Shown here: piece after piece, positions 4,361-44,070 of the stretch
Layout: each line of letters opens with the position of its first letter
Position numbering within the stretch: position 1 is the first letter of the stretch
NCBI GenBank assembly: GCA_027037535.1
Contig: JALVZQ010000005.1
Span: 306,686-370,685 of the forward strand
Origin: Acidilobaceae archaeon
GTDB taxonomy: Archaea; Thermoproteota; Thermoprotei_A; Sulfolobales; Acidilobaceae
Direction of reading: 5' to 3'
Length of the DNA stretch: 64,000 nt
Translations under genes and position numbers: made by a program
Notes under the pieces: model-generated
The model's database searches: none
Seen by the model: the letters and a program-made list of their open reading frames with translations, nothing else
Told to the model about the DNA's origin: nothing

Positions 4361-7300
4361 TCTTTCTGGTAGACTTCTTCGGGTGGCTTATCTAATCGTA
4401 GATTCCTAGCCCTGGTCTCGGTCATTATATAGTTTCTGTGTTTCTCTATAGCCTCGATAAACTCGGGATCTGCCTCTAACCATACTTCAATGTATGCGTC
4501 TACCGGCAGTGACAGGTCTTTTCTCATAGCTTGTATTCTTCTGACAATTTCCCGGGCATATCCTTCTAGTATCTCGTCTTTAGTAAGTCTAGTGTCTATT
4601 CCAATTATCCCTATATCGGTTTCAACAGTGCTTAGCCAGTTCGGATACTCGACTTTTAACTCTACATGTTTTGGAAGTATTTTTATGACTGTACCTTCTA
4701 TCTCTGCTTTATGTTCTCCGTGCTCAACGATATCTTTTGCTACTTTCTCTTTGTTCTCCTCGACATATGCTATTACTTTCCGCAGCATCTTCTTGAATTC
4801 CGGACCCATGGTCTTATAGTTTGGCTCTACACCGTATACTTTCATGTTCTCGAAGAAGTCTATTCCGACAATCTCTATTTCTTTGACGTTTGCTAGATCC
4901 TTGACTATCTGAGCAGCTCTTTCAATAGTATTCCTTAGAGAGTTATCCTTCAGGGCTATGATTAATTTCTTGACCGGACGGCGTAGTTTTATTCCAGCCT
5001 TCATTCTCGCTGCTGCGGATGCTTCTGTTAATTTTCTTGCTATATCCATTAGTTGCTCTACTTCATCATCTATCCACTTATCGTCCGGCTCCGGTATCTC
5101 TAGAAGATGTATAGTCTCTGGTAGGCTGGGCTCTGCGGGTCTTATCAGTTTCTGGTACAGGTATTCTGTGGTATATGGTATGAATGGTGCAGCCATTAGG
5201 AGCCATCCCTTTAGTACATGGTAGAGTACGGCGTATGCTGCAAGCTTACTTTTTGTCGCTTCTTCTTCCCATACACGTCTTCTTATGAGCCTAATGTACC
5301 AATGGCTTATGTCTTCTACCGGGAAGTCTTTTACTATTCTCGCGGCTTGGTGGAGCCGTAGATCTTTCATCGCCTCGTGGTACTCTTTTAAGAGCCTATT
5401 GAATCTTGATAGGAGCCATTTATCCTCGAATTGTAAGGCTTCTTCCACGTCTTCTAACTTGGTTTGTTCTGGATCGAAGTTATCGATGCTCATATATGTT
5501 GATGCGAACGTGAACACGTTCCATATTATGTTAAACGATCTCCAGACCATGTCCATACTCTTCCACGAGAATCTAAGATCTTCCCAAATTGTATTGTTCA
5601 TTGCCCATAGTCTTATTACGTCTCTAGGAACCCTTGATATTAGTTCTTCGAACTCTATATAGTTACCTAGGGTCTTGTGCATTTCTTTACCTTCCTCGTC
5701 TAGTGCGAAACCATGCACAAGAACTCTCTTGTAAGGTTTCTCGTCAAAGCCTATTATTCCGCTCCTAAGCAGACTAAAGAACCATCCCCTTATCTGATCG
5801 TGGCCCTCGACTATGAAGTCTACTGGTTTTAGGGATTCGTAGAGCTCCTTGTTTCTCGGATAGCTGAGGCTTGCATAGAATGCTATACCACTATCGAACC
5901 ATACATCTAAAACATCCGGCACTCTCTTCATCACGCCGCCGCATTTAGGACATTTCAATGTTACCCTGTCAATCCATGGCCTATGTAATTGCTCTGGTTT
6001 ATGGCCTCCTAGCTCGACTAGCTCGTCTACGGATCCTATGACATGCCTGTACCCACAGCTGCTGCATTCCCACACCGGTAATGGAATGCCCCAGAACCTC
6101 TGCCTGCTTATTACCCAGTCCCGTAGTTCCTTCAATAAGTTTATGAATCGTATAGTTGCCCAGTTCGGCCTCCATTCTATTGATCTAGCCTCTTCTATTA
6201 GGCGTTCTTTCAGCCTTCTAACCGCTATAAACCATTGTTCTGTGGCTCTAAGCACGAGAGGCGTCTTACACCGCCAACAAACCGGGTATCTGTGGATTAT
6301 ACTTCCCTTATGGAACAATGCACCCTTCTTCTCCAGATCCTCTATTACTGCCTTATTTGCATCAGTTCTAAAGTACATGCCATGGTATCTTCCAGCGTCC
6401 TCGGTCATCTTTCCTGTGTTATCTACAAGCGATATTAGTGGAGCCCCCACATTTTTCTCGTTTATTTCGTAATCTATTTCTCCATGTCCGGGAGCCGAGT
6501 GCACGAGACCCGTTCCTTCAGTTGCCGTGACTGCATCGGGAGCAAGAACAACTTTATGATATGGGGCGAGCTTTGCTTGTGCAGGCACAATGTCCTCTAG
6601 CGGATGTATATATTCGAGGCCTTCGAGCTGTGTGCCCTTGAACTCCTCTAGAACCTCGTACTCGGTTTTACCCGCTTCGCTCATTACTTTTTCGAGTCTT
6701 GCCTTCGCTAATATCAGTATTTCTCCGTCCACTTTGACTTTTACATAGTCGAGGTCTGGATGGGCCATCACGAATGCGTTTGCTGGAAGAGTCCAGGGTG
6801 TCGTGGTCCATATAAGTAGATACTCGTTTTGTGAATTTTTGACCTTAAACTTGACATATATGCTCGGATCCTTTAATTCCTTGTATTCGCTGACTTCGTA
6901 GTCTGCAAGTGTCGTCTCACATCTCGGGCACCAATGTACTACTCTCTCGCCCTTGTAGAGTAGGCCTTTCCTCCATGCTTGTTTTATCAACCACCATCCG
7001 GACTCAATGTACTCATCTCTGTAGGTTACATAGGGATTCTCCCAATCCATGAATACTCCTATCTCTTTAAACTGCTCTGTCATAGCCTTGATGTTCTCAT
7101 CAACGAACCGTTTACAGCTCTCAACAAAATTCTCTACTCCTATTTTTTCTATAATCTCTTTCTTGCTCTTTATCCCGTACGCTTTTTCTATTTGAACCTC
7201 TATGGGGAGACCATGTGTGTCATATCCTGGTATATCCCACACATTATAACCACACATCCTATAGTACCTTAGTACAGTGTCTTTGATTACCTTGTTCCAG

Positions 7301-38248: not shown

Positions 38249-38803
38249 ATTTAATAATATAATAATTTAATTAAATAATATTAGTTTTTTATTCATATTA
38301 AGGCAATAAAAGATGTAAATGCTAAGATGTTAACTGGGGAGTTAACATAGACTTACGATAAAAACTATAAACAAAAATATTATTAATTCCTATTAAGTTG
38401 AAGTTCAAACATACGAACTTTACGAAGGAAATAATAGAATTAAATCAATATACTATTTAAAACTTATCGTTCTTAGCTAAAAATTCTTTTTATAATCACT
38501 AAAGTTATAAAATATGAAATATTCCTTAACGCTTCAATATTACTATCCAAACACTGCCACAAGATTCTCTTCTAATAGATCCGAAGAAACAAAATACCTA
38601 ACAAAGTTACTTTTAACACTATTACTCTCCTTATAAAAACACGCGTACCTTGTCATTCTTCTACCATATTTTATATGATTCCCGGTTTTCCTAACACTAG
38701 GGTTTACTTTACTATGCTAATCTCTTAATCATACGCAAAGATATTTCGGTAGCCTACAAAACCTCAAACGTAATTTCACATATATGTTATATTAGAAGAA
38801 TTA
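38249..38803. other. AT-rich intergenic stretch next to the tRNA-linked island
   Basis: About 555 nt, very AT-rich, without a convincing reading frame. It contains small inverted repeats: GTTAACT-GGGG-AGTTAAC (38329-38346) and AAGTTC/GAACTT (38401-38420). It ends at the decayed tRNA-Gly fragment. It could be degraded mobile DNA or a regulatory zone. Confidence 0.5.
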
Positions 38804-38851
38804 TGGTGCAGCTGCCGAGATTTGAACCCGGGATCGCCGGCGGGAGACCGG
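38804..38851 (-). repeat. Decayed 3' half of tRNA-Gly(CCC): probable att site of an integrated element
   Basis: In the same orientation as the complete tRNA-Gly at 42448-42526, this segment repeats its 3' half: encoded CCA, discriminator, acceptor strand, the whole T arm and the 3' anticodon stem. About 19 nt of the T-arm region (GATTTGAACCCGGGATCGC in part) are identical. Differences are four transitions and a 2-nt deletion in the anticodon loop. No matching 5' acceptor strand exists, so it is not a working tRNA. Confidence 0.75.
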
Positions 38852-38885
38852 TATATTCCTAAGTGTATGCCTGAACCTACTCCTT

Positions 38886-38901
38886 GGCACAGGCCTGTGC
38901 C
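38886..38901. repeat. Perfect 16-bp palindrome
   Basis: GGCACAGGCCTGTGCC is its own reverse complement. It lies 35 nt inside the left border repeat of the island and about 50 nt upstream of the first AbrB-like frame, so it may be an operator or recombination-related site. Confidence 0.6.
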
Positions 38902-38949
38902 CGTTTTAACCGAGTCTTTGGCCAAATTTGTGTCAGTGGAGGGGGAGAA

Positions 38950-39195
38950 TTGGTAGATAGGAGTCCCGACCCGGTGGAGGTCCTGGAGAGGGCTCTAGCC
39001 AAGACGGTTACTGTAAGCAGAAAGTATGGAGACTATGTCAGCGTTACCATCCCCGCCCGGTTCGCCCGGGCTCTGGGGAGCCCGGAGGCTGCTGTGGCCT
39101 CTTTGGCCCGCGGGGCGGAACCGGGGTTGCACCCTCTCTACTCCTCGCGGCACTCCTCCAGGGCTTTTTGGAGCCCTGTGGTCGTGAGCATGTAG
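38950..39195 (+). pseudogene. AbrB-like protein, probably truncated
   Basis: TTG 38950 follows GGAGGGGGAG closely. The 81-aa frame contains an AbrB-type hairpin (TVTVSRKYGDYVSVTIPARFAR then ALGSPEAA), similar to the signature in the 190-aa protein of the same island. After SLARG the sequence stops resembling the family and runs antisense across the end of the convergent winged-helix gene. That change falls at the copy of the GGAACCGGGG motif (39114-39129). I read it as a gene cut by recombination; a short functional version remains possible. Confidence 0.45.
39114..39129 (+). repeat. Copy 1 of the GGAACCGGGG(G)TTG motif
   Basis: GGCGGAACCGGGGTTG, matching with one base missing the inverted copy at 40677-40693 and, in its core, the direct copy at 40766-40781. 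It coincides with the point where the AbrB-like frame loses family character. Confidence 0.6.
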
Positions 39196-39446
39196 GTCTG
39201 TCTTCCGCCGTGCATGGTTAGGTAGCCCCTTCTCACGAGTTCCTGTAGTAGGTCCCTTTTGGCCTTGAGGAGCCTCCTGAGGCTCCTGCCCTCTATGGGG
39301 TGGTTGCGGATGAGCTTCTCCAGAACCTTTAGTAGGTGTTCTTCGCTCACGTTCTTGGCCTTGGAGAAGCCTAGCGTGTCGGCCACGGCGCAGAGGGCCG
39401 CCTGCACGAGGCTTTCGGGCCACTTCACCGTTCCCGTCCCTGCCAT
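39138..39446 (-). CDS. Winged-helix-like small protein of the island
   Basis: A 102-aa protein: helical first half (LVQAALCAVADTLGFSKAKNVS) and a helix-turn-helix/wing pattern in the second (RSLRRLLKAKRDLLQELVRRGYL then TMHGGRQTYMLTTTGLQKAL). This fits a small DNA-binding regulator. A TATA element (CCTTATAGGG, 39465-39474 on this strand) lies 23 nt from the ATG, so the mRNA is probably leaderless. GC-rich codon use differs from the chromosomal genes. It shares its promoter gap with the divergent 39553 gene. Confidence 0.65.
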   Translation of the reverse strand: MAGTGTVKWPESLVQAALCAVADTLGFSKAKNVSEEHLLKVLEKLIRNHPIEGRSLRRLLKAKRDLLQELVRRGYLTMHGGRQTYMLTTTGLQKALEECREE

Positions 39447-39479
39447 TCTAGAGGGTCTCTAGAACCCTATAAGGTTTTC

Positions 39480-39507
39480 CGTAAACCATCCATGGCTAAC
39501 GTAAACC
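39480..39507. promoter_or_regulatory. Operator-like direct repeats in a divergent promoter
   Basis: CGTAAACC occurs twice, at 39480-39487 and 39500-39507, exactly 20 nt apart (about two helical turns). The pair sits between the two divergent TATA elements (39465-39474 on minus, 39506-39515 on plus). This spacing suggests a regulator bound on one face of the DNA, perhaps one of the island's own small DNA-binding proteins. Confidence 0.5.
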
Positions 39508-39515
39508 CTTATAAG
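39506..39515 (+). promoter_or_regulatory. Promoter of the 39553 gene (TATA box)
   Basis: CCCTTATAAG, the same TATA type found at 40694-40704. It lies about 40 nt before the start codon, so the transcript has a very short leader. Confidence 0.55.
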
Positions 39516-39552
39516 CTGCTGCAAACAATGCATTATACGCGGGTTATGGAAG

Positions 39553-40041
39553 ATGAAAGGAGAGGAGCCCGTTGAGGCTCTCCTGATTGGTCACCGCTAC
39601 CTGCTCGCCGTGCTCTCCGCCAGGCCTAGGAAGGTGAGGAGCAAGGGCCGCGAGTACTGGCAGTACAATATACCCCTCCCCGCTGGCCTCGCTAGGAGGC
39701 TTCTCGCCCTGGCGGGAGAGGAGCCAGGAACCCTCCTACCCCTAACCATAATCATGGGGCCTAGCCCCTGGTACCACCTCATAAAGTGGAGCGCCCCCGA
39801 GTCCAACTCCCTCTACCAGCGCATACCCCGGAGGTATAGGAGGGAGATCGAGGCCCTCGGCCTCAGGGGCGGGGACCCAATAGTACTAGTACCCGCCAGG
39901 CCTGAGCAACTAAGGGAGCTGGGCCTGGATCCTGAGAAGCCAATAACCCTCGAGGACCTCGTGGAGAAGATCAAGGAGAGGGTGAGAGAGGAGCCCCGGC
40001 GGGAGCTAAGGGCTAAGCCCGCCGCGTCCCCCAGACCATAG
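39553..40041 (+). CDS. Island protein with a distant AbrB-like signature
   Basis: A 162-aa protein, GC-rich codons. The segment REYWQYNIPLPAGLARRLLALA resembles the hairpin of AbrB-type proteins (Y-x-h-x-IP-x-x-h-A) found twice more in the island, though weakly. The C-terminus is charged and basic and may be disordered. No catalytic motif is visible. An upstream in-frame ATG at 39547 is possible. The end overlaps by 29 nt with the convergent 97-aa gene. Function unknown; a DNA-binding role is inferred. Confidence 0.55.
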   Translation: MKGEEPVEALLIGHRYLLAVLSARPRKVRSKGREYWQYNIPLPAGLARRLLALAGEEPGTLLPLTIIMGPSPWYHLIKWSAPESNSLYQRIPRRYRREIEALGLRGGDPIVLVPARPEQLRELGLDPEKPITLEDLVEKIKERVREEPRRELRAKPAASPRP

Positions 40042-40306
40042 GGTAAGGAATGAGGGCGAGAACCCTCCTCGCCGGGAGCCCCGCGAGCTCTGGGCTGTCG
40101 CCGGGAGAGGCCTCTATGTAGAAGCGAGGCGCCCTATAAGTGGCCTCGAGGTCCTCCCACCTGACACTCCCCTCCTCCACTATCCCATGTAGCCACGCCC
40201 CGCCCCAGAGGCTGGAGAGCCAGCGGGCAAAGGCGTTTATCAGCCTATCCCTCTCACTCTCAGGCATGTCCCAGAAGGGCCCCGCCTCCACCCGCAACCA
40301 GGGCAA
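40013..40306 (-). CDS. Small island protein of unknown function (97 aa)
   Basis: Not recognised. A compact Trp-rich protein (FARWLSSLWGGAWLHGIVEEG) with a Pro-rich C-terminus, no membrane segment and no cysteine. The start is TTG. It shares the GC-rich codon use of the island and overlaps the 39553 gene tail to tail. It has a balanced amino acid make-up and is probably real, but no homologue comes to mind. Confidence 0.45.
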   Translation of the reverse strand: MPWLRVEAGPFWDMPESERDRLINAFARWLSSLWGGAWLHGIVEEGSVRWEDLEATYRAPRFYIEASPGDSPELAGLPARRVLALIPYPMVWGTRRA

Positions 40307-40393
40307 CTAGACCACCCCGACCACCGCACGCCTAAGCTCGGATCCCACATATATGCTTCCATCTCTACACAAAGACCTGTGGTGTGGGCAGCG

Positions 40394-40645
40394 ATGGAGG
40401 AGAGCACCACGGTCAATGCGGTGCGTGTCCTACTGGTCTCTATGGTAGTGATAACTGCCCTAGTGATGATTATTATGGTGTCCTCGCCAGACATGGGATC
40501 GGTGTGGCACTTAATAGAATCAGGTGCAAGGGGCGACTGGAATGGCTTTTACAGCACCTTTATGAAGATACTTGGCGGATTCATAGTTGGTGAACTCGTG
40601 GTGGGGATAGCATTCTCCATAATAGGGCTTGGGCGGAGCGTCTAA
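40394..40645 (+). CDS. Small two-helix membrane protein
   Basis: An 83-aa protein with two hydrophobic helices (VRVLLVSMVVITALVMIIMVS and ILGGFIVGELVVGIAFSIIG) separated by a polar loop with GDWNGFY. Small proteins of this kind are common in archaeal plasmids and viruses, but no family is recognised. ATG 40394 is about 40 nt after a TATA-like CATATATG (40349-40356); an in-frame GTG at 40379 exists. Confidence 0.55.
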   Translation: MEESTTVNAVRVLLVSMVVITALVMIIMVSSPDMGSVWHLIESGARGDWNGFYSTFMKILGGFIVGELVVGIAFSIIGLGRSV

Positions 40646-40676
40646 AGATCTCCCATCTAGGAGCCCGTAGGGGGTA

Positions 40677-40781
40677 CAACCCCCGGTTCCGCCTCCCTTA
40701 TAAGTTTTTCCCAGTACCCTGCTATTGCAACACGTCATTGCCGCATTGTGTTGTGTCCCCGAGGAGTGGAACCGGGGGTTG
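40677..40781. repeat. 105-bp block bounded by inverted copies of the GGAACCGGGGGTTG motif
   Basis: The left end (CAACCCCCGGTTCCGCC, 40677-40693) is the inverse of the right end (core GGAACCGGGGGTTG, 40768-40781). Inside lie a TATA element CTTATAAG (40697-40704) and a smaller inverted repeat CAACAC/GTGTTG (40728-40753). The block forms the promoter region of the 40832 gene. It may be an operator array or a miniature mobile element. Confidence 0.55.
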
Positions 40782-40831
40782 ACAAAGCATGGTAACCTCA
40801 CCCGCAACACTGCATAGAATGGTGCCACGTT

Positions 40832-41119
40832 TTGCCCAGGAGGAGGAAGCTCAGGGAAGTGGAGCTCCAAATATGGCTCCAGAGGCTCCCACAGTGGAAG
40901 AGGAGGGCCCTCCAACTCCTAGCACAGCAGGAAAAGCCGCTGACCACGGGGGATCTCCTAGACAAGCTCCTAGAGGAAGGCCACCAGACAACCCTGGCAG
41001 CACTATACCACTTCCTATCGAGGCTAGCCCGGAAGGGGATAGTGGAGAGCTACAAGGTATTCATGAGCAACAAGAGGGCATGGCTACTCAAAGAACAGTA
41101 CCGGGAGAAGATACGCTAG
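40832..41119 (+). CDS. Winged-helix DNA-binding protein of the island
   Basis: A 95-aa protein with a winged-helix pattern: RRALQLLAQQEKPLTTGDLLDKL, a recognition-helix region HQTTLAALYHFLSRLARKGI, then a wing VESYKVFMSNKRAWLL. The N-terminus is basic. The start is TTG with GGTG upstream. The long overlapping frame on this strand (40789-41748) is Pro-rich and is an artefact of GC-rich DNA. The stop overlaps by 4 nt with the convergent AbrB-like gene. Probably a transcription regulator. Confidence 0.7.
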   Translation: MPRRRKLREVELQIWLQRLPQWKRRALQLLAQQEKPLTTGDLLDKLLEEGHQTTLAALYHFLSRLARKGIVESYKVFMSNKRAWLLKEQYREKIR

Positions 41120-41688
41120 CCCTGCCTGTAGACCCTTACCCTAACCCTTTCAGCCGCTACCTCGACGACGATAGCCTTAGCCCTCGGATCCTTGAGTGCG
41201 AGCTCAACCTCGGACACCTCGCCGGTTATAGCCCAGCCCCTCCCCGAGAGCCACGAGATCAGGCGGATGAGCCTCCCGGGGCTTGTCCCCGGGTAGCCGC
41301 ACGAGAGCCAAGGATACTCGAGCGCCCTGACGCTACCGTCACCGTAGAGTATGAGCGAGCGGGCCTCGTCGGGGCCGCCCCGGCAGTCGACCACCAGGGT
41401 CTCGACCCCCCGGTGGGCTATAATAGAACCGATGAGGAGTTCATCCGGGTCGTCAACCCTCGCGCTCCTGGCCTCCCCCCCAAGATCCTTGACTATGGCT
41501 TCCAGCTCCCCCTCCGAGACCTCGCCCGTCTCCAGCCTCCTAACGGGGATGAGCAGGAGCCCCACGCCCCACTCCTCCCACCAGTACTCCTCCGGGCCGC
41601 CCAGGGCGAGGTGCAAGTGCTTGGGTATAGTGACCAGGTAAGACACGCTCCCCCGCGAGCTTCTCTTCACGCTCACCCTGACACGCAA
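41116..41688 (-). CDS. AbrB-like N-terminal domain protein
   Basis: A 190-aa protein whose first 45 residues look like a SpoVT/AbrB hairpin (VSVKRSSRGSVSYLVTIPKH then LHLALGGPEEY and VGLLLIPVRR). The rest, about 140 residues, is acidic and alpha/beta, and I do not recognise it; it may bind a ligand or partner. The start is TTG after GGGGTGAT. GC-rich codon use. It resembles the truncated frame at 38950 in the motif YxVTIPxxxxxALGxPE. Confidence 0.6.
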   Translation of the reverse strand: MRVRVSVKRSSRGSVSYLVTIPKHLHLALGGPEEYWWEEWGVGLLLIPVRRLETGEVSEGELEAIVKDLGGEARSARVDDPDELLIGSIIAHRGVETLVVDCRGGPDEARSLILYGDGSVRALEYPWLSCGYPGTSPGRLIRLISWLSGRGWAITGEVSEVELALKDPRAKAIVVEVAAERVRVRVYRQG

Positions 41689-42052
41689 CCCCTATCACCC
41701 CGTCACCCCGCACATCTCCACGTACGTTTAAGGAACGTCCTCCCTTAAAAATCTAACGCTCCGCCAGCCCTCTAAACCAAGAAAACACAAACCCATACAC
41801 CCCACCAGAAAAAACATAAAAACCACCGGAGCTACAATCCCTACCACAACCCTCTATCAACACATCTTTCACCCTACATTCCCGTTTAGAATTCTAAACG
41901 AAATCCTTTAAAAAGGTAACGGTTGGTTGCACAATTCTGAGTTTTCCTTGATTATAACAATTTTCATTACATAAAATTATATTTTTGAATATAAAAGGAA
42001 CTAATATAGTCTAGAAGATTGGCTATTGGCTAATAAAAAGAACAACAAAGAG
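41689..42052. other. AT-rich gap between the GC-rich cassette and the last island gene
   Basis: The base composition changes abruptly near 41750 from GC-rich to AT-rich. No gene is seen. It contains the 18-bp palindrome at 41883-41900 and the upstream region of the 41116-41688 gene. Confidence 0.5.
41883..41900. repeat. Perfect 18-bp palindrome
   Basis: CGTTTAGAATTCTAAACG is identical to its reverse complement. It lies in an AT-rich gap between the two minus-strand AbrB-like genes and looks like a dimer-binding operator. Confidence 0.6.
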
Positions 42053-42412
42053 TTAAGCTAGATAGACTAGAAGAGTCTTCTCATCTTTCCATTCAACTAG
42101 CACGGGACCTTCCTGCTCTTTTGCATATTTCTTGGGAACTGTTACCCATGCATCGTTCTTTCTCTTGAGAACTCTCTTCTCTCCTGTACCAAATTTTATT
42201 ACTAGTACCGAGTCTGAGAGGGGTACTATTGAATAAGAATCCGGGTAGTCTTGGGGTTTGCCTAGATAGAGCTTGTATGTTCCGTTATTCCACTTCTTTA
42301 TTTTCTTTATGGTTATCCTCCCCTCTCTAACGCCCCGGGCTAGCTCTATAATGCTCATCTTTCTCTCCTGTTCTTTTACAGGGATATGGACAGATTTTTG
42401 TGTAGCGGCCAC
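42053..42412 (-). CDS. Small island protein with AbrB-like features, next to tRNA-Gly
   Basis: A 119-aa protein with a beta-rich C-terminal half (DAWVTVPKKYAKEQEGPVLVEW then KDEKTLLVYL) that resembles an AbrB-type domain, and a repeat-like earlier part (ITIKKIKKWNNGTYKLYLG). The start is GTG with GGAGGGG 6 nt upstream. Unlike the genes at 39-41.7 kb, its base composition is close to that of the chromosome. It begins 36 nt from the 3' end of tRNA-Gly, inside the island border. Confidence 0.55.
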   Translation of the reverse strand: MAATQKSVHIPVKEQERKMSIIELARGVREGRITIKKIKKWNNGTYKLYLGKPQDYPDSYSIVPLSDSVLVIKFGTGEKRVLKRKNDAWVTVPKKYAKEQEGPVLVEWKDEKTLLVYLA

Positions 42413-42447
42413 TTTGGCCCCTCCTCTGGTATTACTTTTGGGTTGTG

Positions 42448-42526
42448 TGGTGCGGCCGCCGGGATTTGAACCCGGGATCGCCGGCTTGGGAGGCCGGCGT
42501 CCTAGTCCAGGCTAGACGACGGCCGC
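42448..42526 (-). tRNA. tRNA-Gly (CCC anticodon)
   Basis: Minus-strand tRNA: acceptor GCGGCCG pairs with CGGCCGC, the anticodon stem CCGGC/GCCGG closes the loop CTCCCAA giving anticodon CCC, the T arm has GGTTCAAATCC, the discriminator is A and CCA is encoded (42448-42450). No intron. It is the intact right border of the island; a decayed copy of its 3' half is at 38804-38851. Confidence 0.95.
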
Positions 42527-43740: not shown

Positions 43741-44070
43741 GGAGAGCCGCGGCTGGCGGCTACGGCCGCATAAGGCTGAGGAAACTCCGCCCTCCCCACG
43801 GGATCCGGGCCCCGCAAGGGGCACAGGTGAAACCTGTGGCAACGGCACAGAAACGACACGGCTCCACGAAGATGACTATGATGCTGCGAGGCCCTCCTGG
43901 CAACAGGAGGGCAGATAACCAGCGGAGGATTCGTGGAGATGCGTTGAAACGGCCGGCCCCGGAGGAGCAAGGATCCCGGGGCGATGAGTCCCCGCGCGAT
44001 GCCTCGGGATAGTGTCCGCTGAGTCGGATGCCGCCGTAGTACAGAAGGCGGGTTATAGCCGCGGCTCTCC
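43741..44070 (+). ncRNA. rnpB: RNase P RNA
   Basis: Catalytic RNA that trims tRNA 5' ends. The P1 helix is perfect: GGAGAGCCGCGGCT (43741-43754) pairs with AGCCGCGGCTCTCC (44057-44070). The conserved core elements GAGGAAACTCCGCC near the 5' end and ACAGAAGGCGGGTTATAG near the 3' end are present. A kink-turn-like GGGGCGATGAGTCCCC segment for L7Ae lies near 43978. About 330 nt, normal for archaeal type A. A possible TATA (AAAATAAAG, 43711-43719) overlaps the end of the upstream gene. Confidence 0.95.

Follow-up and report, generated by a model that had tools for sequence, protein, structure and literature searches.

A tRNA-Gly(CCC)-associated island in an Acidilobaceae genome is very probably an internally deleted remnant of an integrative-conjugative element

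The 3.6-kb island that adjoins the tRNA-Gly(CCC) gene in the stretch of DNA analysed here (64,000 nucleotides, hereafter the window) very probably descends from an archaeal integrative-conjugative element (ICE) and is what internal deletions have left of it, judging from its sequence and that of its relatives. The att duplication, an empty site, exact element ends, parent elements and truncated genes were each directly observed; the order of events and the conjugative nature of the element are what we infer. The phenomenon itself is well known, and the element family is one found in this archaeal family; no description of it was found in the literature searched.

The tRNA-Gly(CCC) gene (42448-42526, minus strand), the reconstituted target whose 3' half constitutes attL, was identified by ARAGORN and scores 60.9 bits against the Rfam tRNA model. 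The last 50 nt of this gene, CCA included, are repeated in the same orientation at 38804-38851 (minus strand), where the displaced and decayed 3' half-copy constitutes attR. The copy aligns with the tRNA over 38 ungapped positions with 35 identities, followed by a 2-nt gap and 10 further aligned nt; its four substitutions are all transitions, each toward A/T in the copy, and the 2-nt deletion falls in the anticodon loop. The alignment therefore agrees with the preliminary description, which had reported a same-orientation repeat differing by four transitions and the loss of 2 nt. When the window was shuffled 50 times, the 38-mer reached at most 24 of 38 identities, and the remaining strong 38-mer matches, among those examined in the 1.65-Mb genome, are complete tRNA genes. 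One of these, C5:194598, was considered as a further copy and rejected, being a tRNA-Ala gene.

A related genome with an empty site had been proposed as a check, and one was found. The congener G003, whose assembly is 86% complete, has the same locus without the island; the tRNA is identical and the right and left flanks are 91% and 90% identical. From the tRNA 3' end to the left flank there are 103 nt in G003, compared with positions 38299-42447 in the window. Furthermore, AATTATGGTGC, which abuts the window's copy, resembles ATTATATGGTGC, which abuts the G003 tRNA, as would be expected if the chromosome's original 3' half survives as the window copy. Two features expected of a tRNA-integrated element are thus present, namely the 3' part of the tRNA directly repeated at the two ends and an empty site in a relative. 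The AT-rich gap at 38250-38803 (554 nt, 26% GC) is only around 100-150 nt long in G003; it lies outside the element, and the insertion does not account for its approximately 400 nt of extra sequence.

Some archaea have split tRNA genes (PMC3293823), and the 38804 segment could be a functional tRNA part, either the 3' half of a split tRNA or a second tRNA, but this is barely credible: complete tRNA-Gly(CCC), (UCC) and (GCC) genes are already present, the copy itself gives no tRNA match by ARAGORN or Rfam and has lost two anticodon-loop nt, and it is absent from the G003 empty site. A functional RNA of any kind at this position was likewise rejected, as Rfam gave no match there.

The differences between copy and tRNA reflect decay after integration, as had been suggested, because the displaced copy in another congener, G004 (contig C19), is intact at 50/50 positions and is accompanied by homologous inner sequence. 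The argument first offered for decay, that all the differences are transitions, does not hold; transitions outnumber transversions 269 to 87 (around 3:1) in the flanking genes, so that four out of four has a probability of around 0.33, and the transition count was rejected as a mark of special decay. Third-codon-position divergence between the window genome (G000) and G003 is 20-31%, and the copy differs at 4 of 48 positions, which is compatible with insertion some time after the two genomes split. As the island is absent from G003, the insertion probably postdates the split, unless G003 lost it through exact excision; "old", as the element had been called, can be kept only in a relative sense.

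The element body occupies 38852-42447, which makes a unit of 3,644 bp counting one att copy. Its ends are homologous to those of an element in G004, where the left inner sequence (C19:20740-20820) is around 88% and the right inner sequence (C35:2958-3060) around 83% identical to the window. The target in G004 is tRNA-Gly(UCC), with chromosomal flanks unrelated to those of the window, and since the same ends are found at a different tRNA gene, the element ends can be fixed at 38851/38852 and 42447/42448. Together with the empty site, these homologous ends at a second tRNA support the original suggestion that the repeats are att sites left by integration at a tRNA 3' end. The adjacency of C19 and C35 is itself deduced from the homologous element ends and so should be read as probable. 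A second empty site, at the UCC locus of G004, was not recovered; the left-flank gene has only distant relatives (25-28%) in other congeners. Loci L007 and L034 show that the tRNA-Gly(UCC) gene of G000 is interrupted at the anticodon loop, within the would-be att site, by a 39-nt intron, and that the UCC gene used by the G004 element is intronless, although this is one case only. At L037:2671-4553 (G004:C19) two tandem o102/o162 modules (see below) adjoin tRNA-Gly(CCC), which suggests repeated insertions into one tRNA, and at L042:4969-5018 (G005:C213) a tRNA-Gly 3' half-copy lies beside different small ORFs with no integrase recognised.

The island has a GC content of 59% (38852-41750) compared with 43-44% in the rest of the window; related, intact elements, described below as parents, have 57-59%. 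At its left end is the remnant of an AbrB/MazE-like gene (approximately 38934-39110, plus strand), 80% identical over 40 aa to an intact 67-aa ORF in L041 whose match to Pfam MazE_antitoxin (E=2e-4) falls short of the curated cut-off. This gene has lost its last residues near 39110, and o102 follows directly. Antisense to the remnant, at 38998-39075 (minus strand), is a 26-aa trace of the C-terminus of a tyrosine integrase, 65% identical over 26 aa to residues 280-305 of the L041 integrase (E=1e-5 in a search of the window's own genome). The earlier statement that no integrase is present was therefore nearly right: all of the gene apart from this trace has been deleted. The small putative winged-helix protein o102 (39138-39446, minus strand) is 63% identical to a protein in L040 and 46% to one in L082, and its relatives adjoin the integrase gene in related elements. 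Next to it, o162 (39553-40041, plus strand) is the marker protein of the element family, with 44-58% identity in the A2 alignment; its fold was poorly modelled (pLDDT 56) and the structural matches are not meaningful. The overlapping o97 (40013-40306, minus strand) is a VirB4-like conjugation ATPase truncated to its first ~85 residues. Over 83 aa it is 57.8% identical to the ATPase at L041:14649-16445 (residues 18-100), which in turn has matches among VirB4 families and the conjugative plasmids of Sulfolobus; the homology stops after ~85 residues, beside the end of o162.

Further right are o88 (40379-40645, plus strand), a small putative membrane protein known only as an ORF, with no family match and no relative in the loci compared; o95 (40832-41119, plus strand), a winged-helix-like protein with 46% identity over 95 aa in L083 and weak FUR/PadR matches; and o190 (41116-41688, minus strand), whose N-terminus may be AbrB-like on the basis of 27% identity over 104 aa to L045:4583-5110, itself a weak MazE match. 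The right-end gene o119 (42053-42412, minus strand) adjoins the tRNA. Homologous sequence, frameshifted, adjoins tRNA-Gly in both G004 (UCC) and G001 (CCC), the latter being a decayed right end at that genome's own tRNA-Gly(CCC), and o119 must therefore belong to the element even though it is not GC-rich. Five putative genes (o102, o162, o95, o190 and o119) persist as open frames, and most of the remaining small genes look like DNA-binding regulators. Of the TraG, VirB11 and PKD-type genes nothing is left; in place of an intact integrase and conjugation genes the island holds fragments only. Repeats of GGAACCGGGG(G)TTG occur in both orientations at window positions 39117, 40677 and 40768, with similar palindromes beside o102 in relatives; they are possible terminators or deletion hot spots. 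An archaeal RNase P RNA gene (RF00373, 188 bits) is located at 43744-44067 (plus strand), 1.2 kb from the tRNA-Gly gene.

Profile searches took in 48 genomes of the same archaeal family, and o162 relatives were found in eight of them; the named records with o162 relatives are metagenome-assembled genomes labelled Acidilobaceae or Desulfurococcales. Related elements with an integrase, which the preliminary description had proposed looking for, do exist: intact integrases were found at three places in two of the 48 genomes, namely G004:C50 (L082), G016:C10 (L041/L045) and G016:C33 (L083). All three share the left-end order att, AbrB-like gene, integrase, o102 (winged-helix), o162; beyond the winged-helix gene the parents carry VirB4-, VirD4/TraG- and VirB11-like conjugation genes, and the window keeps the same order. 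The att half-copies of these elements come from tRNA-Ser(GCU), tRNA-Gly and tRNA-Glu(CUC), respectively, with isoacceptors assigned by visual inspection of the anticodon loops; the half-copy from tRNA-Glu is identical to the 3' half of the window's own tRNA-Glu. Genes called by ARAGORN as tRNA-Asn (L041) and tRNA-Pro (L083/L058) were rejected as false fusions of an att half-copy to element sequence.

A VirB4 and VirD4 pair with a secretion ATPase is the signature set of archaeal conjugative elements (PMC6563490). G016:C33 encodes such a pair, in which a VirB4-like ATPase is accompanied by a TraG/VirD4-like protein of 1087 aa. Among the plasmid relatives of the latter are pNOB8 and further conjugative plasmids of Sulfolobus, as well as one plasmid of Thermococcus nautili. 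On G016:C10, the VirB4-like protein has its matches in this same plasmid group, and a T2SSE/VirB11-like ATPase is also present. Sulfolobus conjugative plasmids (pNOB8, pARN/pKEF) match the parents' VirB4-like and TraG/VirD4-like ATPases at 30-38%, but a 733-aa PKD-type protein of the parents matched nothing in the plasmid collection, and integrase, conjugation and PKD-type genes have all been lost from the window island. Thaumarchaeal integrative-conjugative elements also combine a VirB4/VirD4 pair, a secretion ATPase and tRNA integration (PMC6563490), although their host group differs and the likeness is one of description. Since no contig was found to span a parent from one att end to the other, their full size and their capacity for conjugation are to be taken as probable. 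A second decayed relative is seen in the window's own genome, at ~9570-12400 of L081 (G000:C2:102000-120061), with two ORFs resembling o162 and an integrase broken into two pieces; no tRNA was found near it.

The parents' site-specific integrase was characterised with a profile and alignment built from three sequences. The profile matches SSV1 integrase catalytic domains (E=7.5e-4), and Pfam Phage_integr_3 is matched only below the curated cut-off. The best Foldseek matches are SSV1 structures (3uxu, 3vcf, 4dks) with a probability of 1.00, for a model with a mean pLDDT of 62. While these suicidal SSV1-type integrases are the closest solved structures, the parents' att does not lie within the integrase gene, which remains a whole ORF inside the att end after integration (L041, L082, L083) rather than being split. 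The gene adjoins the half-copy and overlaps the AbrB-like gene on the opposite strand. In L041:5000-6018 (G016), an apparent N-terminal half of an SSV-type integrase reads through a tRNA-Leu gene (5728-5814), and looks like a separate integration. Integration of the pNOB8 type similarly takes place at the 3' ends of tRNAs and uses att sites of 40-50 bp, but its integrases have Y-x-x-R (PMC8371274), within an R...YxxR...Y motif, where all three of the parents' have S-x-x-R and SSV1 has K-x-x-R. Moreover, the pNOB8-type integrase gene lies beside the rebuilt tRNA (PMC3293823) and that of the parents beside the displaced half-copy. As the integrase lacks these two defining features, the element is not filed as pNOB8 type.

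The relationship to a viral integrase might suggest that the island is the remnant of an integrated virus. This is highly improbable, for the parents have no recognisable capsid gene or other virion gene and carry the VirB4-, VirD4/TraG- and VirB11-like genes instead; searches for relatives found none in the phage collection for the integrase, and none in IMG/VR for o162 or the integrase. In the preferred ICE-remnant reading, the attP (around the last 50 nt of tRNA-Gly) of an ICE or conjugative plasmid would have recombined with the chromosomal tRNA-Gly(CCC) gene via the element's own tyrosine integrase. The tRNA would have been rebuilt from the element's 3' half, the host's former 3' half being displaced to 38804-38851 where, freed from selection, it would have mutated. 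Later internal deletions would have taken out the integrase and the greater part of the VirB4-like ATPase, along with the VirD4/TraG, VirB11 and pilus-like genes. The island as it stands would be unable to excise or transfer itself.

CIMEs are ICE-derived islands with two att sites and without an integrase. The window island is like them in keeping attL and attR and having lost its recombination genes, but its attR is decayed. Alternatively, an integrase-less form of this kind, CIME-like or miniature, could have been mobilised in trans by a related integrase into tRNA-Gly(CCC) of G000 and tRNA-Gly(UCC) of G004. The elements of these two genomes occupy different tRNA genes, share both ends and are 80% identical beside o102, where the integrase would be, and the sole intact integrase gene of G004 belongs to a different element. 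However, the G004 element is split over two contigs (the end of C19 and the start of C35) with the gap at the expected integrase position, and the adjacency of those contigs is itself presumed; further, the shared stretch includes intergenic sequence that relatives with an integrase also have beside o102, and a common deletion junction is therefore not required to explain it. We regard mobilisation in trans as unlikely, if well short of negligible. The broader proposal, of a family of small tRNA-gene islands encoding mainly regulator-like proteins that move among tRNA-Gly genes via the integrase of larger elements, is slightly more doubtful again; if true, such integrase-less islands would be an archaeal counterpart of CIMEs or satellites.

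With the island as an ICE remnant, parent, remnant, empty site and second target together make a clean case of a conjugative element that has shrunk to a handful of small genes; few descriptions of mobile elements were found for the archaeal family concerned. The parents also bring to light a group of tyrosine integrases that has an unusual residue in a catalytic motif (S-x-x-R) and uses tRNA-Gly, tRNA-Glu and tRNA-Ser genes.
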